A stretch of 20,554 nt of DNA, taken from positions 1 to 20,554 of the IMG/VR virus record IMGVR_UViG_3300035157_001307; one strand, written 5' to 3'. Below the pieces are notes generated by a model. It was not told where the DNA came from. It made no database searches and saw only the letters and a program-made list of their open reading frames with translations. Source of the DNA: a virus. How positions within the stretch are numbered: position 1 is the stretch's first letter; every line of letters starts with the position of its first letter. A program made the translations under genes and the position numbers. Of the stretch, positions 1 to 20,554 are shown piece by piece.

Positions 1-3000
1 GTTGAACATTATTAATAGTCCATGTCTTCAAATTAGGTGATAGTATTACACCAGATCCGGGAGTTTTCGCAGTAATTGTAGTTCCATTCTCAGTATATCC
101 TGCACCCTTTGTTATAACATCTACACCTACAACCTTTCCGTTCGCTACTCTTGCAATGAGTTTAGCACCCACACCATCACCATTGATAATCATGTCAGGG
201 ACACTGAAGTAGTCCTTACCACCACTCTTGATCGCTACAGAATCTATTCTTCCATTGACAATCACTGGATCAAATGCTGATTTAGATCCCTCAATGACCA
301 ACGCATCAGGTTTGAAGTTATCGTTTATAAAGAGTGAACCAAAATCATCACCCTTTGTTTTTACGTGTACACCATCAACTTCTCCTCTAATCACTGCAGA
401 TGCAGTCGCGTTAGAAGTCGATATTCCTTGTGTACCATCAATAGTTACGGATACCGGTGGATAGTTGAAAGAATGAACACCAGTTCCGGGTAGAGTCATC
501 TCTACATAATCAACTAACGAAGTTGAAATAGAGACTCTGAAATTATTATCATCTATCTTTACGACATAATAATCACTACCAACTGTAAGACCAGAGATAT
601 TTGATACCGTTCCTCCACCATATCGTATCAATTCTCCTGATGAGTATTTGTGATTAGGTATGTTTATGACATCTGTAAAGGTATTGATACCAACGCTATC
701 AACTGTGTTCTCTCTATTTTGGAAGTTTGTTGACGATATGATTTCTATACTGTCTACCTTTAGTCTAGACTCCTTTGTTTCAAATTTATGTAATCCACCA
801 CCATTTGTTGCAATCGGAAGTGTTGTGATACCTGCAAGTGCCTCGTTACGGGTTTTGGCGAGTGATAGGGTAAAGTCGTCATTCTTGATGACAAAATAAC
901 TTGATTTGTTAACAAGATTTCCCGGAGTAGTGCCAATTCCAATGGTCGTTGAACCATCGGTTCCGTAGACAACCTCTTCACCATGTTTGAATCCATGTGG
1001 TTCAGTAAATGTAAATTTATCAGTGCTAGTATTCAGAACACCACCAACACTGGTACTATCAAAGAATACTTCATGTGGAGCGAGTCTCATCTTCGCTTCA
1101 GCAGTTGCCTGACCATTACCACCGGTAATTTTTACGTCAGGAGTTCCTTTATAGTCTAATCCGCGAGAAGTTACTTGTATCTCCTGCAGTTTACCACTCA
1201 CATGTGCGATAACAGATGCACCTATACCAGTATGTCCGTCTTGCTGCACGGATATACGAGGTGGATTGATTACATCATAATCTGATCCTTGATTCAGTAC
1301 ATCTACTGTCTCTACAGATCCATAGTAAATTTTATCGGAAGATTTGTATGAATATGCTTCTACACCATTTACAAAGAGTCCTACACCCTTACCAGTCTCT
1401 GTTTTATCTTTGGTAGAACCGAATTCTGGTTGAGTAAACTTACGAAGTAATTTTTGTGCACCAATTGTACCAAAACCAACTTCAAATGGAGTAAGTGAGT
1501 GATTTGTGTTTGTTCCAATATCAGCAGTATCAAATGCAAAGACATATTCACCTCTACGAGCGTTCTCTGCCGATAGAGAGAGTGAAATCGTGGATTGGGT
1601 TAGATTGGTCACATAATAAGATTGACCAGTGCTGAGACCCGCTACAGGTGATCCTGTTACAAGAGGATTATAGAGAACTATATCACCATGCTGTAGATTA
1701 TGATCAGGTATCGTAATTACTTGAGATCTTGTTGAAATTCCAGATGAACTGAATGTTCTTATTCTCTTTTGTACATCTATGGGGTAATGAGGTAAACTAT
1801 TTGATGCAACAACGACAGTATCACCTTGTGCGTAGGTATTTTGTACATCTGCAACATTATTGTTCTGCTTTCTTAGTTTTGCTTGTATGTGATAATTCTT
1901 ACCCGCTAAAAGAGAGGGTGCACTGATATAAACAATACGATCATTCAATATACCTGTAATCGTACCGTCTTGAGATCCACCATCAGCGTCATTGACAGAT
2001 ATGAGTTGTCCAGACTTGTAATAATGTTTCGCAGTCAATATAAGTTCATAGTTTCCTGCAGAGATTGTCTTGAAATCCTGTACAACATGTTTCGTTGCAA
2101 TATTCTCTAACCACTCACTATATCTAAGGTCTGTCTTAGTGGCACCAAGTGTTTTGATTTTATATTCACTACCTTTTTGCTGTAAAACACCACTTCCTTC
2201 AAAACCAACAATAGAATTCAATACTCTTAGTTTGACTGGACGATATAACTTACCATCTTCATATGATATGACATTATCACCTTGATTTACAGTAGCACCA
2301 ATTGATACAGTCCCTACACCAGTGACATTCAAAAATTCTGTAACAGTTTTATCAGTATATGCATAAACTCTCCTTCCTATGGTCACAGAATCTGATTTTG
2401 CAAATCCAACAGTTGAATCTACATGTATGACAGAAGAACCTGATGTAAGTTCACTTGTAAGATTAGTTTTTACAGTAGGCAAGAATTTACCTTCAATAGT
2501 ATCTGAAGATAATCGTATCTTATAATAAGTCTTATCTTGAATAACTATATTTTCAACATCAAAGACAGATGCTAATGCATAATCGCCCTGTGATATAGAT
2601 TGAGACTTAATTTTTTTCGGATCTCCGCTTATAAGTTCTGCAATCAATACATCATTTACAGTATATTCTGCATCCGATGGTTTGAAGAGAAATTCCTGCG
2701 GTTTGATCATATCAACCGCTTCATTATACAAAGTTCCAAAGAGAATCTTGAAACCTTCCTCTGTTCCCTTGGCACTGTAGAAGTCCTGTGCCTGTTTTAG
2801 GAAAAGACGACTATCTAATTTGCCAGTAAAGTTACGGTTTACAAAACCGGGTGCAATTTGACCCTTTACCTTTTTGAAAAATTTCTGTAAGAATATATTA
2901 CTTAGATTTGTTACTCGTGATCTATCAGCGTGTGTTGAAACTCCTGATTGAGTAAATGTCAAATATTCTGGAGCATTCGTTTTCTGATTGTTCTCAATAC

Positions 3001-6674: not shown

Positions 6675-6703
6675 ATTATACACACAAAAAAGGAGGACGT
6701 CAG
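6675..6703 (-). promoter_or_regulatory. Sigma70-like promoter fused to the upstream terminator
   Basis: On the minus strand CTGACG (6703-6698) is followed by 17 bases and then TATAAT (6680-6675), which points at the 239-aa gene starting at 6654. The -35 hexamer sits in the loop and 3' arm of the terminator hairpin at 6692-6709, so one stretch ends one transcript and starts the next. Confidence 0.6.
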
Positions 6704-6709
6704 TCCTCC
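6686..6709 (-). terminator. Intrinsic terminator after the 55-aa gene
   Basis: The minus-strand hairpin is GGAGGAC / TGAC loop / GTCCTCC, followed by a run of six T. The stop codon of the 55-aa gene (6702-6700) lies in the loop. Confidence 0.85.
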
Positions 6710-6867
6710 GTTTCTGTACCCAAGTATTTCACTTCGATGTCGTCAGGGTGTGGGGTTCCGTCACGATAAAATTGTTCTGCATATTCTTGAGTCACCTCAA
6801 GCATCTCTTCCTCATCAATGTCAGAACGGACTTTTTCACCCTGCAAGTATATATCGTACCTTTCCAT
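6700..6867 (-). CDS. Small acidic protein of unknown function (55 aa)
   Basis: The ATG at 6867 opens a 55-residue frame, starting MERYDIYLQGEK and ending DDIEVKYLGTETED. It is rich in D and E with no cysteines and no membrane span. It lies 36 bases downstream of the glycosyltransferase stop and shares its transcript. The frame ends exactly at the terminator, with the TGA in the hairpin loop, which supports it as a real gene. Only a weak AGAG precedes the start. The family is not recognised. Confidence 0.7.
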   Translation of the reverse strand: MERYDIYLQGEKVRSDIDEEEMLEVTQEYAEQFYRDGTPHPDDIEVKYLGTETED

Positions 6868-8427: not shown

Positions 8428-8807
8428 AAAACTATACACTTTGTAGGAATTCCTCCCCTACCTCTTATATATCTCTTTCTCTGTGCAGGGGCAAGTGATG
8501 CTCTCCACACCTCTATTGCTTCCCATCGCTTCTGGTCAAAGAAGTCTTGCTGAAAATACCAGATTTCCACGGATTCATGTGATTTAGATTTGTTACAATC
8601 ATCGCAGCAACATAGCATATTTGTCAACTCACTCTGCCCACCGTGTGTCTGTGCATGTATGTGATCTATTGTATCCCCGTATTCTCCACAGTATGCACAT
8701 TTATAATCCCACGCTTCCTTGATGTGTTTTCGCCACATCTTTTTCGCCTTCCCATAATTACTCGCCAACATTTCATAAAGGTACTCTGAAGGTTTGCTAA
8801 GTAGCAT
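8424..8807 (-). CDS. HNH endonuclease
   Basis: This 127-residue protein is a compact HNH nuclease. The motifs are CAYC (C37, C40), the DH pair D48-H49 in TIDHIHAQTHGG, N63, and CDDCNKSK (C68, C71, N72). The two CxxC pairs form the structural zinc site, and the DH...N...N residues are the usual metal-dependent nickase/cleavage site. Free-standing HNH nucleases in T4-like phages are often homing enzymes, and others act in packaging or host-DNA attack. Its start codon lies only 28 bases from the divergent sulfotransferase start. I see no intron or inserted-gene scar next to it. No convincing promoter is visible in the 28-base gap. Confidence 0.88.
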   Translation of the reverse strand: MLLSKPSEYLYEMLASNYGKAKKMWRKHIKEAWDYKCAYCGEYGDTIDHIHAQTHGGQSELTNMLCCCDDCNKSKSHESVEIWYFQQDFFDQKRWEAIEVWRASLAPAQRKRYIRGRGGIPTKCIVL

Positions 8808-8823
8808 ACATATTGGGTATAGT
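8794..8823 (+). promoter_or_regulatory. Weak candidate promoter for the sulfotransferase run
   Basis: TTGCTA (8794-8799), 18 bases, TATAGT (8818-8823). If used, transcription would start about 6 bases before the ATG at 8836, giving a nearly leaderless message; no Shine-Dalgarno precedes that ATG. The match is poor. Confidence 0.3.
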
Positions 8824-8835
8824 ATTATTATCTAT

Positions 8836-9852
8836 ATGAAACCGAAGTTTATTATGAGTGCCGGTACTGGATGGTCGGCAACCACTCCCCTGTGGTACAC
8901 TTTACAGTTGGATAACAAATATCTTCATACAGGTTACAGAAAAGAAGGATCATATCTAAAAGAGTTGTCAATGAGTCCCCAAGAGAGATTGAGGGCGAAT
9001 TTGCATGCAAGAAAAAATCAAGGGATCTCTGCTGTTCAAAAAACAAGAGAGATGGCAAAGAAAGTATTGAAAGAGAGAGACGAGTACCAAACTAAGAATA
9101 TAAAGGAAGTAGGTAGTCTAGTCCCCTCTTGGGAATATCAAGGATCATTAGCAGCAGTCAGAGAAGACCTATATTTGACTCAAGAAGACATAGATGAGTT
9201 TATTTCACTACCTCAGAGTCTAGACAAGTACATTGCATACTATAAAAAAGTTTGGGAGACTCTACAGGAGCATAACTGTCCTCATCATGCAGTTGCAGAC
9301 TTCTCTAACTCGAATGCATCTCTTTCTAGATCATTCGTCGAGTCTATTATGCCAAAATTACAAGAACACTTTGATGTCAAGGTACTTATGATAGTCAGAG
9401 ACCCGATTCGTCGTCTTTGGTCTGAAAGTGGTGCCTTTTTGAAGGGCACTCAAGAAGATCATGAAAGAGCATTCCTTGAGAGAGTGGTATCTGGTCGGTG
9501 TTGGGATTATATGGAGATTATAGAGAGTTATGAGGGTCTTGTTCCAATGCACATTGTAATCATGGAACAACTATGGGAAGGATATGGGCAGGATGAAGAA
9601 AAATACAAATTATCCAAGTTTCTGAACTATGATATCGATGAAGTCCATGTAAATGTGTATTCACCTGACTATGGACCGAATGCACCTCAATATCCGGGTT
9701 TGCCAGATCAGTGGCACTCAGACAAATACTACTTACGGGAAGAATTGTACAATCAGGTCAGACCATTATTCAAAGTTTACGAACAATGGGTAGACAAGTA
9801 CGGAAGTCTTCCTTTATACTGGGGTCAACCTTATAATTATGCAAAAACCTAA
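8836..9852 (+). CDS. Sulfotransferase-like protein, copy 1 of 3 (338 aa)
   Basis: The protein opens MKPKFIMSAGTGWSATTPLW. The glycine- and threonine-rich turn at 10-20 follows the first beta strand, as in the 5'-phosphosulfate loop of PAPS-dependent sulfotransferases. The 3'-phosphate site is also present: VLMIVRDPIRRLWS (R188, S196). Between them, AVADFSNSNA (152-161) occupies the place of the acceptor-side motif in this superfamily. A shared C-terminal block, GPNAPQYPGLPDQWHSD, ends in a WVDKYGSLPLYWG tail. It would transfer sulfate from PAPS to a hydroxyl or amine, with target unknown. The 8836 ATG is chosen over an upstream TTG because it aligns with the starts of copies 2 and 3. It overlaps copy 2 by 14 bases. 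Confidence 0.82.
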   Translation: MKPKFIMSAGTGWSATTPLWYTLQLDNKYLHTGYRKEGSYLKELSMSPQERLRANLHARKNQGISAVQKTREMAKKVLKERDEYQTKNIKEVGSLVPSWEYQGSLAAVREDLYLTQEDIDEFISLPQSLDKYIAYYKKVWETLQEHNCPHHAVADFSNSNASLSRSFVESIMPKLQEHFDVKVLMIVRDPIRRLWSESGAFLKGTQEDHERAFLERVVSGRCWDYMEIIESYEGLVPMHIVIMEQLWEGYGQDEEKYKLSKFLNYDIDEVHVNVYSPDYGPNAPQYPGLPDQWHSDKYYLREELYNQVRPLFKVYEQWVDKYGSLPLYWGQPYNYAKT

Positions 9853-10750
9853 ATTTCTGTTACTCGCAGGCACTGGTTGGTCTGCCACCACTCCATTGTG
9901 GATGACTCTCAAAGAACAAGGCATTTTGAACACTGGATTATGTAAAGAACCACAAACACTCACTAATATATGTTTTGCAGACGATAATTTTTGGGCATTC
10001 AAACAAAAACCAAAGATAGAGTATGTCCGGTCGAAGAAAAAACACTCAGAACATGATATACAGTTACTCTTAGGTGAAAAATCAACTTTAGACGACTACG
10101 TTACTTACTATCAGTCAATTGTAGGCAAAACTCCTTATGTTGGCGACTTTAGTAATGACAATGCCTTTTTGCCGGGTTGGTTTATCTCTGTTTTAGCAGA
10201 GAGACTCAAGGAAGTGTTTGATGTCAAGGTTTTGATGATATTTCGTGATCCTGTAAGAAGAAGTTACTCATATGCTTCTGCTGCATATGGAGCGAAGTCA
10301 GAAAAGAACTCTAAGATTAGCAGTAACTGGGATAATAACGATCCGAAGTCAAGATTCGAGTGGAGAAAGATAAAAAAGAATAATCCTGATAGTATTACCT
10401 ATTGGAAAAACCTAATCTCCATGTTAGACCCGAATATGGCGAGGTTTTCTTATGTTGACATCTATAAGAAGTACAAATATTCCTTTGATACACTTCCAAT
10501 CGTCATGGAGGACTTATGGGGTGGCAAAACAGAAGAACTTGAAGATTTCCTAGGATGCAAACTTGACGGTTTACATCGAAACTGCTATTATCCGGAAAAG
10601 GGCACTCAAGCACCACAATACGAAGAATTGCCAGATCAGTGGATGAGTGATATGCAGGATATTTCAGCAGCAGACTATCAATTCGGTAGAAACCTACTTA
10701 GATTCATCTATGAAGAGTGGGAACATGAGTTTGAAGCAAATCCATGGTAA
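9839..10750 (+). CDS. Sulfotransferase-like protein, copy 2 of 3 (303 aa)
   Basis: This is the diverged middle copy. It has the same start (MQKPKFLLLAGTGWSATTPLW; phosphosulfate-loop region 11-21), the same acceptor-side motif (VGDFSNDNAF, about 101-110) and the 3'-phosphate motif VLMIFRDPVRRSYS (R136, S142 or S144). It also shares the C-terminal GTQAPQYEELPDQWMSD block. It lacks about 45 residues that copies 1 and 3 carry between the phosphosulfate loop and the acceptor motif, and has a different lysine-rich middle (KSRFEWRKIKKNN). It ends EFEANPW instead of the PLYWG tail. It probably uses the same cofactor with a different acceptor. It overlaps copies 1 and 3 by 14 and 7 bases. Confidence 0.8.
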   Translation: MQKPKFLLLAGTGWSATTPLWMTLKEQGILNTGLCKEPQTLTNICFADDNFWAFKQKPKIEYVRSKKKHSEHDIQLLLGEKSTLDDYVTYYQSIVGKTPYVGDFSNDNAFLPGWFISVLAERLKEVFDVKVLMIFRDPVRRSYSYASAAYGAKSEKNSKISSNWDNNDPKSRFEWRKIKKNNPDSITYWKNLISMLDPNMARFSYVDIYKKYKYSFDTLPIVMEDLWGGKTEELEDFLGCKLDGLHRNCYYPEKGTQAPQYEELPDQWMSDMQDISAADYQFGRNLLRFIYEEWEHEFEANPW

Positions 10751-11718
10751 AACCACAGTTTATACTTAGCACTGGCACTGGATGGTCAGCAACGACTCCC
10801 TTGTGGTACACACTACAAGTAGATAATCCCTTTTTACATGTAGGAATGAAGAAAGATCCCGGATATCTTGATATGTTGAGAAGAACACCGGAAGAGAGAA
10901 TGATAACTGACCGAAAGAACTTTAGAATCAATGGTCGTTCATGGACAACGAAGAATCGTCAGTGGTCAAAGATTGTTTTACAGATGAATAAGGAATTATT
11001 TGAAGAAGGAGCAATACAAACTCGTGGAGGAGCACTTACAGAAGCAAGAAGGCATTTATATTTTACACAAGAGGACGTAGATGAGTTTAGCGAGACACCT
11101 TTATCATTTGAGAAGTATCTCTCTTACTATCGTAAGCACTGGAAATACCTACAGGAGAATAATTGCCCCTACAAGGCAGTTGCAGACTTTTCAAATTCAA
11201 ATGCCAATCTTCCAGATTGGTATATTGACGAATTTATGCCAAAACTTCAAGAACACTTCGATGTCAAGGTACTTATGATAGTCAGAGACCCAATTCGTCG
11301 TCTTTGGTCAGAAGTCAATAGCGATGATCAGGAACATTTCTTCATGAGAAAGATTCAAAGTGGAGATTATTGGAATTATATTGATATTATTGAAAAATGG
11401 GAGAGAGTTTGCCCGATTCATGTCATCATAATGGAACAATTGTGGGAAGGTGACCAACAAGAGAGAGAAAGACAACGATTATCTGACTTTTTAGACTATG
11501 ACATCAAAAAAATTCATGAAAATGCATATTGTCCTGACCGTGGACCCGATGCTCCGCACCTTGTGGGTCTTCCAGACCAGTGGACAAGCGATAAATACAT
11601 GTTACAAGATGAATTATACGAGAAAGTAAGACCTTTGTTCCCCGTTTATCAACAATGGGTGGACAAGTATGGTAGTTTACCGCTATACTGGGGAAAACCA
11701 TACAACTATGAGGTATAA
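10744..11718 (+). CDS. Sulfotransferase-like protein, copy 3 of 3 (324 aa)
   Basis: Copy 3 is the close relative of copy 1. It has MVKPQFILSTGTGWSATTPLW (phosphosulfate-loop region 11-21), AVADFSNSNA (145-154), VLMIVRDPIRRLWSE (R181, S189), the GPDAPHLVGLPDQWTSD block and a WVDKYGSLPLYWGKPYNY end nearly identical to copy 1. It lacks about 14 residues in the central variable region, just after the RRLWSE motif. A 32-base stretch at 11260-11291 is identical to 9373-9404 in copy 1, including third codon positions, pointing to recent duplication or conversion. The ATG lies inside the end of copy 2, so the three are almost certainly one transcript. The acceptor is unknown. Confidence 0.82.
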   Translation: MVKPQFILSTGTGWSATTPLWYTLQVDNPFLHVGMKKDPGYLDMLRRTPEERMITDRKNFRINGRSWTTKNRQWSKIVLQMNKELFEEGAIQTRGGALTEARRHLYFTQEDVDEFSETPLSFEKYLSYYRKHWKYLQENNCPYKAVADFSNSNANLPDWYIDEFMPKLQEHFDVKVLMIVRDPIRRLWSEVNSDDQEHFFMRKIQSGDYWNYIDIIEKWERVCPIHVIIMEQLWEGDQQERERQRLSDFLDYDIKKIHENAYCPDRGPDAPHLVGLPDQWTSDKYMLQDELYEKVRPLFPVYQQWVDKYGSLPLYWGKPYNYEV

Positions 11719-15935: not shown

Positions 15936-16394
15936 TTATACAATGCTAAATTCTAGTTGCTGATCGGTTTCTGGTAGATCGGCAAGTGTTAGAGGTTTTT
16001 GAAAAATTACCATGCCGTCATAGAAATTGATTTCTGTGTCTGTGTTTTGATCTCTTACTATCCACTTACCTCTAACTTGTACTATCCTAACCTTACCATT
16101 AGTATGCAAGTGTAAAATAGCGTTGAGTCTTTCTTTTGTTGTCTTAGTGTAGTAACCTGCTGAGAATAGTTTGACTTTCTGGTTATCGTAGTTTGTAGGA
16201 TTGTATGAACAGATTAGATTGCCATGTAGAAAAACATCTACTATTCTACTACCGTCCTGCCTAACTCTAGTTTCTGTGTTGCCAGATTTTTGGTTGCAAT
16301 TCATTCTCATTAGTAGAGATGTATCCTGACTTGGTTTTGAAAATGTGTTCCAGATATATGACTGAGTAGTTAGGTTAGTGAGATCAAATTCCAT
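15936..16394 (-). CDS. Early-region protein of unknown function (152 aa)
   Basis: The start is set at the ATG at 16394 (MEFDLTNLTTQSYIWNTFSK), because the upstream in-frame ATGs lie in or before the -10 box. The protein has a beta-rich pattern: TETRVRQDGSRIVDVFLHGN, then SAGYYTKTTKERLNAILHLH, then VRIVQVRGKWIVRD. From memory, similar sequences recur in cyanophage early regions as hypothetical proteins. It has no membrane span or metal site. Its promoter is the best in the array (TTGACA, 17, TATAAT). Its 37-base leader-plus-promoter tract is identical to that of the 113-aa gene at 18105-18446. Confidence 0.82.
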   Translation of the reverse strand: MEFDLTNLTTQSYIWNTFSKPSQDTSLLMRMNCNQKSGNTETRVRQDGSRIVDVFLHGNLICSYNPTNYDNQKVKLFSAGYYTKTTKERLNAILHLHTNGKVRIVQVRGKWIVRDQNTDTEINFYDGMVIFQKPLTLADLPETDQQLEFSIV

Positions 16395-16419
16395 TTTGTT
16401 TTGTTTGATTGATACCTTC

Positions 16420-16448
16420 ATTATAGAGAATAAAAAAAGGACTGTCAA
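16420..16448 (-). promoter_or_regulatory. Consensus promoter inside a terminator
   Basis: On the minus strand TTGACA (16448-16443), 17 bases, TATAAT (16425-16420). The TTGA is exactly the loop of the terminator hairpin at 16437-16456. Confidence 0.82.
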
Positions 16449-16456
16449 CAGTCCTT
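16432..16456 (-). terminator. Intrinsic terminator fused to the next promoter
   Basis: The minus-strand hairpin is AAGGACTG / TTGA / CAGTCCTT followed by a run of T. It ends the 113-aa gene at 16470-16811, and its loop supplies the -35 box of the next cassette. Confidence 0.88.
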
Positions 16457-16469
16457 AGTGTATAAAATG

Positions 16470-16811
16470 TTACGCTCTGACCTTGCGATTGTAAAATGCT
16501 TTTCTATCGCTGTATCCTGTAATTCTCTGAAGTTCGTCAGATAAATCTTGGAAAAATGTCTCTCCATTGTATCCTAGTTTTTCGATCTCATAATATGTAA
16601 ATGGAATTGCTGAAAGTGCTAAACCTGAGAACCAGTATTCTAGACTTTCATATCCTCCTACCTCTACCATGTAGCGATCGAAGCACCATTCAAATTTATC
16701 TGAGTCTGACCAGTTTTTGCAGTCAGTATTGTCAAGAATAGCATTGTTTGAATAGTCATTCTCTAGATCAGAGTTGATTGCGTCTAGTAGAATTGTTTTG
16801 AGTGTGGTCAT
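16470..16811 (-). CDS. Early-region protein of unknown function (113 aa)
   Basis: The protein begins MTTLKTILLDAINSDLENDY and is acidic in its first half, with an aromatic-rich centre (WCFDRYMVEVGGYESLEYWF) and a basic end (SDRKAFYNRKVRA). It looks like a small soluble helical protein. It has one promoter upstream, a CAATCAATCAATC leader running directly into the ATG, and a strong terminator after the stop, so it is a complete single-gene transcription unit. No family recognised. Confidence 0.82.
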   Translation of the reverse strand: MTTLKTILLDAINSDLENDYSNNAILDNTDCKNWSDSDKFEWCFDRYMVEVGGYESLEYWFSGLALSAIPFTYYEIEKLGYNGETFFQDLSDELQRITGYSDRKAFYNRKVRA

Positions 16812-16834: not shown

Positions 16835-16862
16835 ATTATAGTCGATACTGGACTATTGTCTA
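16835..16862 (-). promoter_or_regulatory. Promoter of the 113-aa gene
   Basis: On the minus strand TAGACA (16862-16857), 16 bases, TATAAT (16840-16835). The -35 touches the 7-base hairpin CTATGTA/TACATAG at 16860-16880. Confidence 0.65.
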
Positions 16863-16880
16863 TGTACATTTGATACATAG
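16860..16880 (-). repeat. Array hairpin (CTATGTA/TACATAG)
   Basis: A member of the recurrent inter-cassette hairpin family: 7-base arms, 7-base loop CATTTGA on the plus strand. It lies directly after the stop of the 68-aa gene at 16885. There is no T run, so termination is doubtful. Confidence 0.6.
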
Positions 16881-16884
16881 GTAA

Positions 16885-17091
16885 CTAATTTCTATATTCA
16901 TAGGGATTAGTCCAGTTGACTCTTTGATTCTCAGTAATGTATCCGTCAGCAGCAAGAAATTCAGTATAATCTTGCCATGCAAAAACTTTTGCCAGTTTTG
17001 TGACCTTCTTACCTTCTCTTTTGCATCTAAGAGTGTAAACTTTCCAATTATACTTGAATTGCTCGATTGCTTGAATTTTAGTTGTTTTCAT
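16885..17091 (-). CDS. Early-region basic protein of unknown function (68 aa)
   Basis: The protein starts MKTTKIQAIEQFKYNWKVYT and is strongly basic in its first half (RCKREGKKVTKLAKVFAWQD), with an aromatic, asparagine-rich end (WTNPYEYRN). This composition would suit nucleic-acid binding, but no motif is recognised. The ATG follows a TCAATCAATC leader without a spacer, and there is no Shine-Dalgarno. It is a single-gene unit with hairpins on both sides. Confidence 0.78.
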   Translation of the reverse strand: MKTTKIQAIEQFKYNWKVYTLRCKREGKKVTKLAKVFAWQDYTEFLAADGYITENQRVNWTNPYEYRN

Positions 17092-17114: not shown

Positions 17115-17142
17115 ATTATAGTCAAATGGAGCGATCGGGCAA
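17115..17142 (-). promoter_or_regulatory. Promoter of the 68-aa basic gene
   Basis: On the minus strand TTGCCC (17142-17137), 16 bases, TATAAT (17120-17115) preceded by GAC. The -35 is the foot of the hairpin at 17140-17160. Confidence 0.7.
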
Positions 17143-17160
17143 TGTACATTTGATACATTG
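17140..17160 (-). repeat. Array hairpin (CAATGTA/TACATTG)
   Basis: Perfect 7-base arms with the 7-base loop CATTTGA on the plus strand. There is no T run after it on the minus strand. It separates the three-gene operon at 17202-17734 from the next cassette. Confidence 0.65.
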
Positions 17161-17201
17161 TTTTGTATCCCTTTCGCCCCTCTAAACAAGTAGAATAAAA
17201 G

Positions 17202-17757: not shown

Positions 17758-17785
17758 AGTATAGTCGAGTTATGGTATAAAACAA
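17758..17785 (-). promoter_or_regulatory. Promoter of the three-gene early operon
   Basis: On the minus strand TTGTTT (17785-17780), 16 bases, TATACT (17763-17758) preceded by CGAC. The -35 lies at the loop/arm junction of the hairpin at 17772-17802. Confidence 0.62.
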
Positions 17786-17802
17786 TGTACATTTTATACC
17801 AT
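17772..17802 (-). repeat. Array hairpin (ATGGTATAAAA/TTTTATACCAT)
   Basis: Perfect 11-base arms around a 9-base loop (CAATGTACA on the plus strand). This variant moves the array's core sequence into the loop and adds a new stem. It may terminate the 69-aa gene's transcript, although no T run follows. Confidence 0.6.
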
Positions 17803-17812
17803 GTATCATTTG

Positions 17813-18022
17813 TTACTTGTCTGCATGAGTCGTAAGAAATTCATGAATGTCATCACAAATTGCTGTTAGTTCATCATCACTTGCACCCATACTAGGGTCA
17901 TAGTCAACAAAGTCTTCAATAGGGTCTCCACCCATTGTTACTTGCCTGATTGAAACAGTATTTTCTTCAATAAATGCTTCATGAAGTAAGGTCTCATTTT
18001 GGTAAGTGTGTTCAAAGATCAT
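17813..18022 (-). CDS. Early-region acidic protein of unknown function (69 aa)
   Basis: The start is set at the ATG at 18022 (MIFEHTYQNETLLHEAFIEE). The longer frame would begin upstream of the promoter, in the preceding terminator. The protein is very acidic, especially DPIEDFVDYDPSMGASDDEL, with a C-terminal helix. Small acidic early phage proteins sometimes mimic DNA or bind host polymerase, but there is no sequence proof here. It is a single-gene cassette. Confidence 0.78.
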   Translation of the reverse strand: MIFEHTYQNETLLHEAFIEENTVSIRQVTMGGDPIEDFVDYDPSMGASDDELTAICDDIHEFLTTHADK

Positions 18023-18049: not shown

Positions 18050-18076
18050 ATTATAGTCGATTATGAAAAAAGGCAA
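18050..18076 (-). promoter_or_regulatory. Promoter of the 69-aa acidic gene
   Basis: On the minus strand TTGCCT (18076-18071), 15 bases, TATAAT (18055-18050) preceded by CGAC. The -35 is the 3' foot of the terminator at 18066-18096, and the T run is in the spacer. Confidence 0.68.
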
Positions 18077-18096
18077 TGTACATTTTATACATTGCC
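18066..18096 (-). terminator. Intrinsic terminator, array hairpin family
   Basis: The minus-strand hairpin GGCAATGTA / TAAAATG / TACATTGCC is followed by six T. It lies 9 bases after the stop of the 113-aa gene at 18105. This is the fullest member of the array family and shows that the family derives from terminators. Confidence 0.85.
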
Positions 18097-18104
18097 CTGT
18101 ATCA

Positions 18105-18832: not shown

Positions 18833-19039
18833 TCAAATGATACCCTGTTCAATTTGCTCAAGTAATTGATCGCCATACTCAAAAACAATTTCGCCTGATA
18901 CGTTATCTCTGACTATTGAATAACCATATTCTAGACCGCAGTCTATTGCATAATCTTCAATAGTGTCATAATCGTTAGAATGAACGTCTCCGCCTACAAA
19001 TTTGTTAGGGGTTTCGCAAGTGTATTTGAATTGAGTCAT
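18833..19039 (-). CDS. Early-region acidic protein of unknown function (68 aa)
   Basis: The protein starts MTQFKYTCETPNKFVGGDVH and is acidic with many tyrosines (NDYDTIEDYAIDCGLEYGYS). A final helix reads DQLLEQIEQGII. The leader has CAATCATCAATCAATC leading straight to the ATG. The TGA stop lies within the inverted repeat GGTATCATTTGATACC, so the frame reaches exactly to the inter-cassette element. No family recognised. Confidence 0.78.
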   Translation of the reverse strand: MTQFKYTCETPNKFVGGDVHSNDYDTIEDYAIDCGLEYGYSIVRDNVSGEIVFEYGDQLLEQIEQGII

Positions 19040-19065
19040 GATTGATTGATGATTGACTTGATTCT

Positions 19066-19093
19066 ATTATAGTAAAAAAGGGATAGAAGTCAA
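19066..19093 (-). promoter_or_regulatory. Promoter of the 68-aa acidic gene, fused to a terminator
   Basis: On the minus strand TTGACT (19093-19088), 16 bases, TATAAT (19071-19066). TTGA is the loop of the terminator at 19080-19103. Confidence 0.78.
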
Positions 19094-19103
19094 CTTCTAC
19101 CCC
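19074..19103 (-). terminator. Intrinsic terminator fused to the next promoter
   Basis: The minus-strand hairpin GGGGTAGAAG / TTGA / CTTCTATCCC (one G-U pair in RNA) is followed by six T. It ends the 64-aa gene and supplies the next -35 box. Confidence 0.88.
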
Positions 19104-19114
19104 TGTATCATTTT

Positions 19115-19309
19115 TTACAAATGGTCGTGCCATTTTGTACCAAATGCACTCATCATTTCGTGGTCAGTTGGTTCATAATCAACTACACCGTCAATAATTT
19201 CGAGAGCGTCATATAAATCATTATAATTTACGTCTCGATCTCTTACATCTAGATTTTCTTGTCTAGTGATGTAGGCATCTAGGTAAGTCTGAATTTCTTT
19301 TAGTGTCAT
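19115..19309 (-). CDS. Early-region acidic protein of unknown function (64 aa)
   Basis: The start is set at the ATG at 19309 (MTLKEIQTYLDAYITRQENL), because the longer frame begins in the promoter region. The first 30 residues form an amphipathic helix. The rest is acidic (DLYDALEIIDGVVDYEPTDH) and ends in WHDHL. The leader has TCAATCAATCAC. The terminator lies 12 bases after the stop. No family recognised. Confidence 0.77.
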   Translation of the reverse strand: MTLKEIQTYLDAYITRQENLDVRDRDVNYNDLYDALEIIDGVVDYEPTDHEMMSAFGTKWHDHL

Positions 19310-19336
19310 AATAAAGTGATTGATTGACTTGTTTCT

Positions 19337-19363
19337 ATTATAGTCGATTTTGGAAAAAAGCAA
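19337..19363 (-). promoter_or_regulatory. Promoter of the 64-aa gene
   Basis: On the minus strand TTGCTT (19363-19358), 15 bases including a T run, TATAAT (19342-19337) preceded by CGAC. The -35 is the foot of a weak 6-base array hairpin (AATGTA/TACGTT with one G-U pair) at about 19362-19380. Confidence 0.65.
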
Positions 19364-19378
19364 CGTACATTTTATACA

Positions 19379-19516
19379 TTATACTGTATCATTCTTACGT
19401 TGACGAAATTTCCTGAGTTGTTCACGATTGAATGAACGATAATCGATTTCGGTAGCGATCGCCATGCCTACAGTATATAAAGCGTAGCAACCGCCCATGA
19501 TAATAAGAATTTCCAT
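19379..19516 (-). CDS. Small protein with hydrophobic N-terminus (45 aa)
   Basis: The 45 residues begin MEILIIMGGCYALYTVGMAI, a single probable membrane anchor, followed by a basic tail (REQLRKFRQRKNDTV) that would lie in the cytoplasm. The start is 3 bases after the stop of the 115-aa gene, so it is the second gene of that unit. No good Shine-Dalgarno is visible. The TAA stop leads directly into the array hairpin, as in neighbouring cassettes. Function unknown. Confidence 0.65.
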   Translation of the reverse strand: MEILIIMGGCYALYTVGMAIATEIDYRSFNREQLRKFRQRKNDTV

Positions 19517-19519
19517 AGT

Positions 19520-19867
19520 TTAGTAGTAAGTAATTTCTCCATTTTCGATACATTCAAGAATTTCAGCAACTTCATTGCTATTCTTATCTTTTGTATCTTG
19601 CCACTCTTGCCAAGTGAGTTTCCTGTATATCTCAAAGAGTTTACTAACGTCTAAACCCTCCATACCATTTTCACTAATAAATTCACTAACATATTGTAGG
19701 TCATTCTCGTCATAACCCTCGCCATCACGAAGTGAACCCGCACACACGAATTTGAAAGCAATGTCAATAAAGAAGTGCCTACCAAACTCTTCTGATTTTA
19801 TAGTTTGCATAGGTATAAACTTGCCATGCTCATCATCTAGGTAGTTTTCAAAAATCCAAGTTCTCAT
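19520..19867 (-). CDS. Early-region acidic protein of unknown function (115 aa)
   Basis: The protein starts MRTWIFENYLDDEHGKFIPM and is strongly acidic, with helices around FIDIAFKFVCAGS and EVAEILECIENG and a tryptophan-rich segment LTWQEWQDTKD. No metal or nucleotide motif is visible. Its leader has TTCAATCAAAAC and no Shine-Dalgarno. It is followed 3 bases later by the 45-aa membrane gene. Confidence 0.8.
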   Translation of the reverse strand: MRTWIFENYLDDEHGKFIPMQTIKSEEFGRHFFIDIAFKFVCAGSLRDGEGYDENDLQYVSEFISENGMEGLDVSKLFEIYRKLTWQEWQDTKDKNSNEVAEILECIENGEITYY

Positions 19868-19890
19868 AATGTTTTGATTGAATTACTATA

Positions 19891-19919
19891 ATAATAATCG
19901 GTATGCTAGTATAAGTCAA
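19891..19919 (-). promoter_or_regulatory. Promoter of the 115-aa gene
   Basis: On the minus strand TTGACT (19919-19914), 17 bases, TATTAT (19896-19891). The -35 is the 3' end of the hairpin at 19916-19938. Confidence 0.7.
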
Positions 19920-19938
19920 TGTACATTTTATACATTGA
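19916..19938 (-). repeat. Array hairpin (TCAATGTA/TACATTGA)
   Basis: Perfect 8-base arms with the loop CATTTTA on the plus strand. Its left arm on the plus strand also encodes the TTGA of the next promoter. It overlaps the last codons of the 80-aa gene, whose stop is at 19930-19928. No T run. Confidence 0.68.
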
Positions 19939-20170
19939 CCCATTTGATTTTGCCTTCTGAGTTGAGTATATCGAAGCATATCTCACAAAGACAGTCAGCA
20001 TCAGGTTCAGCACCTCGCCAGTCATAATCCTCTTCTAAGGGATAATCCCAGTAATAGTATAGGTCAGGTTGATAATCGGGTAATGCTGTCTTTGATGATT
20101 TTGGGAACATTTTTGTAGGTTCTTCAATATGCTCATCATTGAAGTTACCACACTTGTCACACATTGCCAT
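19928..20170 (-). CDS. Putative zinc-binding protein of unknown function (80 aa)
   Basis: The protein begins MAMCDKCGNFNDEH, with C4-C7 as one CxxC pair. A second pair is C62-C65 in DCLCEICFDIL, with C60 beside it. Four cysteines in two such pairs suggest a zinc ribbon whose middle (PDLYYYWDYPLEEDYDW) is rich in aromatic and acidic residues. The ATG overlaps the stop of the 101-aa gene (TAATG), so the two are coupled. Its own 3' end runs into the array hairpin. Confidence 0.75.
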   Translation of the reverse strand: MAMCDKCGNFNDEHIEEPTKMFPKSSKTALPDYQPDLYYYWDYPLEEDYDWRGAEPDADCLCEICFDILNSEGKIKWVNV

Positions 20171-20496: not shown

Positions 20497-20525
20497 ATAA
20501 TAGACGCTATGCTATTATAAGTCAA
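20497..20525 (-). promoter_or_regulatory. Promoter of the 101-aa gene
   Basis: On the minus strand TTGACT (20525-20520), 17 bases, TATTAT (20502-20497). Its upstream side is the same TGTACATTTTATACA element found in the other cassettes. Confidence 0.7.
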
Positions 20526-20533
20526 TGTACATT

Positions 20534-20554
20534 TTATACAATTTCAGCAATTTC
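20534..20554 (-). CDS. 3' end of a further early gene (partial)
   Basis: The last bases read on the minus strand as EIAEIV followed by TAA at 20536-20534. The stop falls inside the array element, as in several neighbouring cassettes, which is the reason for proposing it. Seven codons are too few for certainty. Confidence 0.35.
   Translation of the reverse strand, partial: EIAEIV

Follow-up and report, generated by a model that had tools for sequence, protein, structure and literature searches.

A promoter -35 box in the loop of a terminator hairpin: putative nested terminator-promoters in a cyanophage small-gene array

Can a single stretch of about 40 bp end one gene and start the next? The question arises in the window, by which we mean the whole 20,554-base virus record analysed here. 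A preliminary description of the window reported three hairpins, each followed by a T-run and then TATAAT, and proposed that at each of them the loop holds the -35 box of a promoter and the T-run falls in the 16-17-base spacer. The window is a fragment of a Kyanoviridae-type (T4-like) cyanophage, with marine photosynthetic bacteria as hosts. We placed it among Kyanoviridae-like T4-type cyanophages because it contains late-type genes (baseplate wedge, gp6 and gp25 types), PurM and a Kyano_Gp96 protein. A search of phage records for DNA closely similar to the window gave no match. From 15.6 to 20.5 kb the minus strand carries an array of small genes, most of them with their own TTGNNN-15..17-TATAAT-like promoter.

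For a terminator and a promoter to occupy common bases, what one needs must be what the other leaves free. An intrinsic terminator fixes its paired arms and T-run and leaves its loop free; a promoter fixes the -35 and -10 hexamers and leaves free the sequence of the 17-bp spacer. The loop could therefore hold the -35, with the 3' arm and T-run occupying the spacer, and since a 3' arm reaching several nucleotides past the -35 plus a T-run just fits, both signals could lie within ~40 bp. In RNA form, the upstream transcript would fold at its 3' end and terminate inside the spacer. As duplex DNA, the same site would be bound by the host RNA polymerase holoenzyme, which would start the next gene at an expected point ~7 bp after TATAAT. 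Nesting of this kind would occur twice in the window, within the array of small genes that mostly have promoters of their own. We consider it probable (about 0.8) that an intrinsic terminator and a sigma-70 promoter are overlaid in the element's ~40 bp, with each of the two using bases that the other leaves free. The nested design is supported by sequence, geometry, conservation, covariation and enrichment.

Of the three hairpins, two have a -35 in the loop. The features at the first site, at 16.4 kb, are as follows.

16420-16456, minus strand: putative nested terminator-promoter 1; stem arms 16456-16449 and 16444-16437, loop TTGA 16448-16445
16448-16443 and 16425-16420, minus strand: predicted promoter of element 1, -35 TTGACA and -10 TATAAT, with a 17-bp spacer that holds the T-run
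16470-16811, minus strand: upstream gene that terminator 1 would end; 113 aa, weak PHROG match of unknown function, 88-96% identical in both relatives
15936-16403, minus strand: downstream gene that promoter 1 would start; Pfam Kyano_Gp96, in-frame start region near 16403, 89-94% identical in both relatives

The hairpin (16456-16437, minus strand) reads AAGGACTG/TTGA/CAGTCCTT. Orthologous elements lie between the same two genes in the relatives G002 (AAGGGAACT/TATTGAC/AGTTCCCTT) and G001 (AGGGAACTG/GTTGA/CAGTTCCCT). The stems differ among the three sequences yet stay paired, and TTGACA with a 17-bp spacer is present in 3/3.

The second site is at 19.1 kb.

19066-19104, minus strand: putative nested terminator-promoter 2; hairpin 19104-19079 with loop TTGA, -35 TTGACT 19093-19088, 16-bp spacer, -10 TATAAT 19071-19066
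18833-19039, minus strand: small gene that lies downstream of element 2 and that relative G001 lacks

This hairpin, AGGGGTAGAAG/TTGA/CTTCTATCCCT on the minus strand, contains one G.U pair. Its orthologue in G002 keeps the hairpin and has the G.U pair at another position; G001 lacks the downstream gene and its neighbours. Repeat families (D1-D10) are found within 15.5-20.55 kb, and neither nested element is a copy of the other.

We found that the third site, at 6.7 kb, has a different loop.

6675-6709, minus strand: terminator with TATAAT 11 nt after the stem; loop TGAC, which includes the TGA stop codon (6702-6700) of ORF 6700-6867

The hairpin (6709-6692, minus strand, GGAGGAC/TGAC/GTCCTCC) is followed by a T-run and then by TATAAT at 6680-6675. 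The loop contains TGA, TAG or TAA closing the upstream frame in 9/12 orthologous sites, the window included (the others are L005, L014, L019, L020, L022, L028, L032 and L044), so the coding sequence extends into the hairpin. At 17-bp spacing the window has CTGACG, which matches 4/6 letters of TTGACA; the orthologues have CTAGAC, GAGGAC, AGGACT, GGACTA, GTGCAC and GTACAC, which match at most 3/6. We therefore ruled out this loop as a -35. The site resembles the nested elements in having a hairpin and T-run with TATAAT directly after, and differs in that its loop lacks a -35.

The three minus-strand hairpins are thus where the preliminary description put them, and a T-run and TATAAT follow each one. 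Predicted RNA folds were -10.6, -16.0 and -12.9 kcal/mol at 16.4, 19.1 and 6.7 kb, respectively, and none of 200 shuffles of any of the three was as good. The proposed -35 in the loop, and the T-run in a promoter spacer (17 bp at 16.4 kb, 16 bp at 19.1 kb), held for two sites and failed at 6.7 kb. Likewise, the proposal that one element ends one gene and starts the next stands as a prediction for two of the three sites, where it would take ~40 bp, is kept in relatives and recurs in other phages. The 6.7-kb site, in the late region, had been offered as proof of a design used across the genome; it is no such proof, because what its loop carries is a stop codon, with no conserved -35.

We found more such hairpins in the window than chance would give. 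The window contains six terminator-like hairpins, four with TATAAT just downstream and two with TTGA in the loop at promoter spacing; in 60 dinucleotide shuffles the corresponding means were 0.52, 0 and 0. A scan for a TTGA-loop hairpin followed by TATAAT, which the preliminary description had suggested, thus gave two in the window and none in the 60 shuffles, and the arrangement recurs in viral contigs.

To describe this recurrence we scanned viral contigs for TTGACA-N4..9-T6-N2..7-TATAAT and scored hairpins of at least 6 pairs, with at least 2 G-C, a loop of 3-10 and an overlap with the -35 of at least 3. In the shuffles the hexamers and the run were held fixed and the flanks permuted; clusters were merged at up to 14 mismatches, and some relatedness remains. 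Among the viral-contig matches listed, 41/117 distinct T6 sites had a nested hairpin with the loop overlapping the -35 (2.49 expected). The 41 sites are not 41 independent events, because clusters share ancestry and the sites are a sample among the matches listed. With A6 in place of T6, the hairpin was found in 0/124 sites among the matches listed (1.0 expected). With ACAGTT in place of TTGACA, it was found in 9/96 among the matches listed (1.71 expected); ACAGTT is also found within TTGACAGTT hairpins, which makes this control impure, and three of the nine (L510, L468 and L501) are themselves TTGACA-in-loop hairpins. The T6 pattern in bacterial and archaeal genomes gave 3/117 among the matches listed (1.86 expected), and a narrower scan of viral contigs gave 13/80 among the matches listed (1.78 expected). 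Among the matches listed, the spacer was exactly 17 in 35/41 nested sites, and 19/41 nested stems, whose sequences vary by site, contained G.U pairs.

A separate sample, 2.50 Mb of loci fetched without any T-run pattern, yielded 265 distinct terminators, related sequences among them. TTGA was in the loop of 15/45 terminators with TATAAT after them and of 12/220 others (odds ratio 8.7).

Among the matches listed, 36 nested sites had enough flanking sequence; a co-directional ORF ended within 100 nt upstream of 29 and started within 200 nt downstream of 31. The site lay between co-directional ORFs for 25/36 nested sites, compared with 34/70 hairpin-less T6 sites and 40/118 A6 sites among the matches listed. 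Promoters without a hairpin thus often lie between co-directional ORFs too, which counts against the nested explanation. A TGA in the loop closed a frame of at least 50 codons in 8/66 elements, a count that includes the weak P-RSM6 dyad described below, compared with 2 and 2 in the other frames; with a Fisher p of ~0.10, we report this excess as an observation only.

We found a second, bulged form of the element near cyanophage regA. In a survey that kept 80 loci of 596 relatives, TTGAC-16..19-TATAAT was present near regA in 33/80. Eight sites near regA form nested hairpins of the simple kind, in which TTGAC is enclosed by stems such as AGGGATC/GATCCCT and GGGTTCC/GGAACCC. There are also 22 distinct bulged elements, 19 of them in regA loci, of the type GGGAGGC-AACTGG-CAAAAT-CCAGTT-GAC-GCCTCCC, with a predicted fold of -20.6 kcal/mol that none of 200 shuffles equalled. 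We aligned 14 of the 22, omitting six with a shifted register or an extra base (L615, L636, L637, L638, L646 and L660) and two near-duplicates (L641 and L656). In the alignment 96.7% of cells pair, both sides have changed at 4/7 outer pairs, and TTGAC is invariant in 14/14. The covariation score of the outer stem was 0.244, compared with 0.145 when shuffled (0/500 as high) and at most 0.139 when slid. Two other measures of this stem are weak on their own, since 40/500 shuffles matched the four pairs changed on both sides and 265/500 matched the further pair types. An Rfam search at the gathering score found no family over the nested or the bulged element.

Three manA RNAs (RF01745) lie at L585:1038-1235, L590:1971-2159 and L594:1986-2085. 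In P-SSM2 and L594 the manA RNA begins downstream of the nested element, directly after it and without covering it; in L590 it is downstream of regA. Sub-threshold matches to the ROSE_3 thermometer also lie downstream of cyanophage regA, at L640:1992-2054 and L609:1043-1107 (E 0.014 and 0.13); they may be upstream of hsp20.

Other promoters of the array have an inverted repeat that ends at the -35. The preliminary description read three of them, at 18071, 19914 and 17137, as terminators with the -35 at the 3' foot of the hairpin.

18050-18098, minus strand: hairpin of 13 pairs and T-run, then TATAAT; the -35-like TTGCCT forms the stem's 3' foot, with a spacer of 15
16858-16889, minus strand: inverted-repeat cassette copy of the CAATGTA..TACATTG type, family D2, without a T-run
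17138-17169, 17781-17812, 18072-18103, 19359-19390, 19915-19946 and 20521-20552: the other six D2 copies

At all three the TTG of the -35 does end an inverted repeat, but only 18071 has a T-run. Family D2 (CAATGTAYMAAATGTACATTG type) has seven copies that end at the -35 TTG of small-gene promoters, and five of the seven lack a T-run right after the stem. The view that every foot site is a terminator is not supported, since a T-run is missing at most of them, and we rejected the repeats without a T-run as canonical intrinsic terminators. The D2 repeats may instead serve as an operator or a recombination cassette. One further foot-type site, 19342, which the preliminary description did not list, has a T-run.

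Could the nested sites be terminators and nothing else, in an AT-rich genome where a loop like a -35 and a TATAAT would be incidental? The hairpins and T-runs are strong, and the 6.7-kb site, with a stop codon in its loop and without a conserved -35, is just such a terminator. However, incidental hexamers would not account for the dependence of TTGA in the loop on a downstream TATAAT (15/45 versus 12/220), for the exact 17-bp spacing in most nested sites among the matches listed (35/41), or for the retention of TTGACA while the stems change, both in the 16.4-kb relatives and in the bulged class. The ACAGTT control also counts against this reading (9/96 among the matches listed, with L510, L468 and L501 being TTGACA-in-loop hairpins). 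We regard a terminator alone as unlikely.

The opposite reading, a promoter alone, takes the dyad over the -35 as a DNA operator for a repressor or activator, with no RNA terminator. It draws on the seven sequence-conserved inverted repeats of the array that end at the -35 TTG, five without a T-run, which may indeed be operators. For the nested class we dropped it on the A-run control: among the matches listed, the nested dyad occurs with a T-run in 41/117 sites and with an A-run in 0/124. Moreover, the stems vary by site, and 19/41 among the matches listed contain G.U pairs, which RNA tolerates and DNA sites do not. We give this reading even less credence than a terminator alone. Our results are most consistent with the nested terminator-promoter, and we infer that the element both terminates and initiates in the cell.

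The nested terminator-promoter might in addition be coupled, with the polymerase staying after RNA release at the T-run and re-initiating in place; upstream expression would then feed downstream expression, because the polymerase would re-initiate from the promoter under it. This extends the nested explanation and does not exclude it. According to excerpts of Kang 2020 (PMC6978380), E. coli RNA polymerase mostly stays on the DNA after intrinsic termination and re-initiates nearby, in vitro at 37%, or 55% with added sigma-70, and here the distance between terminator and promoter is nearly zero. Upstream traffic could occlude the promoter instead, which is as likely a priori, and passages of Song 2024 (PMC11347151) argue that recycling is of little weight for phages with their own polymerase. 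For early genes, according to passages of PMC2984593, the host polymerase is thought to serve cyanomyoviruses. By analogy, coupling of termination to re-initiation is plausible at the nested elements; we hold it only tentatively.

The PeSL (promoter-early stem-loop) cassettes of T4-type phages are reportedly composite terminator-promoters too. They are likewise described as small intergenic units, an intrinsic terminator and a sigma-70-like early promoter repeated among variable small genes. The window elements have the GC-containing stem and T-run of a PeSL terminator and, in sequence, a matching promoter (TTGACA-17-TATAAT at 16.4 kb, TTGACT-16-TATAAT at 19.1 kb). They lack the tandem order, in which the promoter is downstream of the stem-loop: RB49 has three clear cassettes in its first 50 kb, with GAAA or TTCG loops and TTGACA 13-16 nt after the stem, whereas in the window the -35 is in the loop and the T-run in the spacer. 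Because it would work like PeSL without the tandem geometry, we call the element a nested variant. In the recycling papers (PMC6978380 and PMC11347151), as far as their excerpts go, termination beside a promoter could likewise feed re-initiation, but at separate sites within ~1 kb; here both signals are on the same bases. Our literature search found no description of a -35 in a terminator loop; the two PeSL papers, Arbiol 2010 and Comeau 2014, may contain one.

We found that the element is present in some cultured phages. Among 11 named T4-type phages, P-SSM2 has one nested site, at the end of regA (record position 142801), and S-PM2 has one, before hli03. In these two phages the upstream gene stops at the TGA within TTGA, so that, unlike the 6.7-kb loop, this TGA serves as both stop codon and part of the -35. 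A related-pattern search gave no match in T4, RB49, KVP40, nt-1, Syn9, P-SSM4, HTVC008M or P-TIM40, and we rejected a match in P-RSM6 as a terminator, since its dyad is weak and no T-run follows. With nested sites in only 2/11, the element is not a general T4-type trait. Upstream of talC in P-TIM40 (169027; L085:19027), a hairpin with a GTTGACA loop and a T-run lacks TATAAT at promoter spacing and is possibly a degenerate nested element.

Lactococcus phage WRP3, which has a Gram-positive host, has five pattern matches, four with a hairpin (record positions 25658, 27766, 70580 and 77246) and all four of those between co-directional genes. Of the other carriers, L223 resembles a Methylophilales phage, L156 a phage with rIIA and L225 a psbA-carrying cyanophage. 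The nested arrangement therefore spans phage groups and host phyla, and we infer that it arose convergently. For L106, a search of phage records gave no protein relative. It is a more doubtful step, one we would rank just below coupling, that host-polymerase phages recurrently, and probably by convergence, use nested terminator-promoters as a device in which the polymerase passes directly from termination to re-initiation and relays transcription through small-gene arrays, sometimes with a stop codon in the same bases. Because Lactococcus WRP3, Prochlorococcus P-SSM2 and Synechococcus S-PM2 are cultured, the effect of the element on gene expression is directly testable. With almost no distance between terminator and promoter, the elements are natural substrates for testing whether recycling of the polymerase after termination matters in cells. 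They also carry a warning for annotation, as a terminator finder will report one half of such an element and a promoter finder the other.

Nesting would save space and would let small gene units be added or lost. Between the window and its relatives, the sequences look as if promoter-bounded small-gene units had been gained and lost. Four adjoining small genes (18833-20170) are common to the window and G002 and absent from G001, where the genes on either side are conserved, and the window gene at 17813-18022 is without a match in either. A repeated leader (CAATCAATCAATCATG type) lies 5' of many small-gene start codons at 15.6-20.5 kb, with no obvious Shine-Dalgarno sequence; one pair of 45-nt copies is 93% identical. 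On the plus strand, 8794-11718 encodes three tandem related proteins with a common TGWSATTPLW motif. They had no PHROG or Pfam family match at the cut-off; from their motifs, we take them to be possible sulfotransferases.
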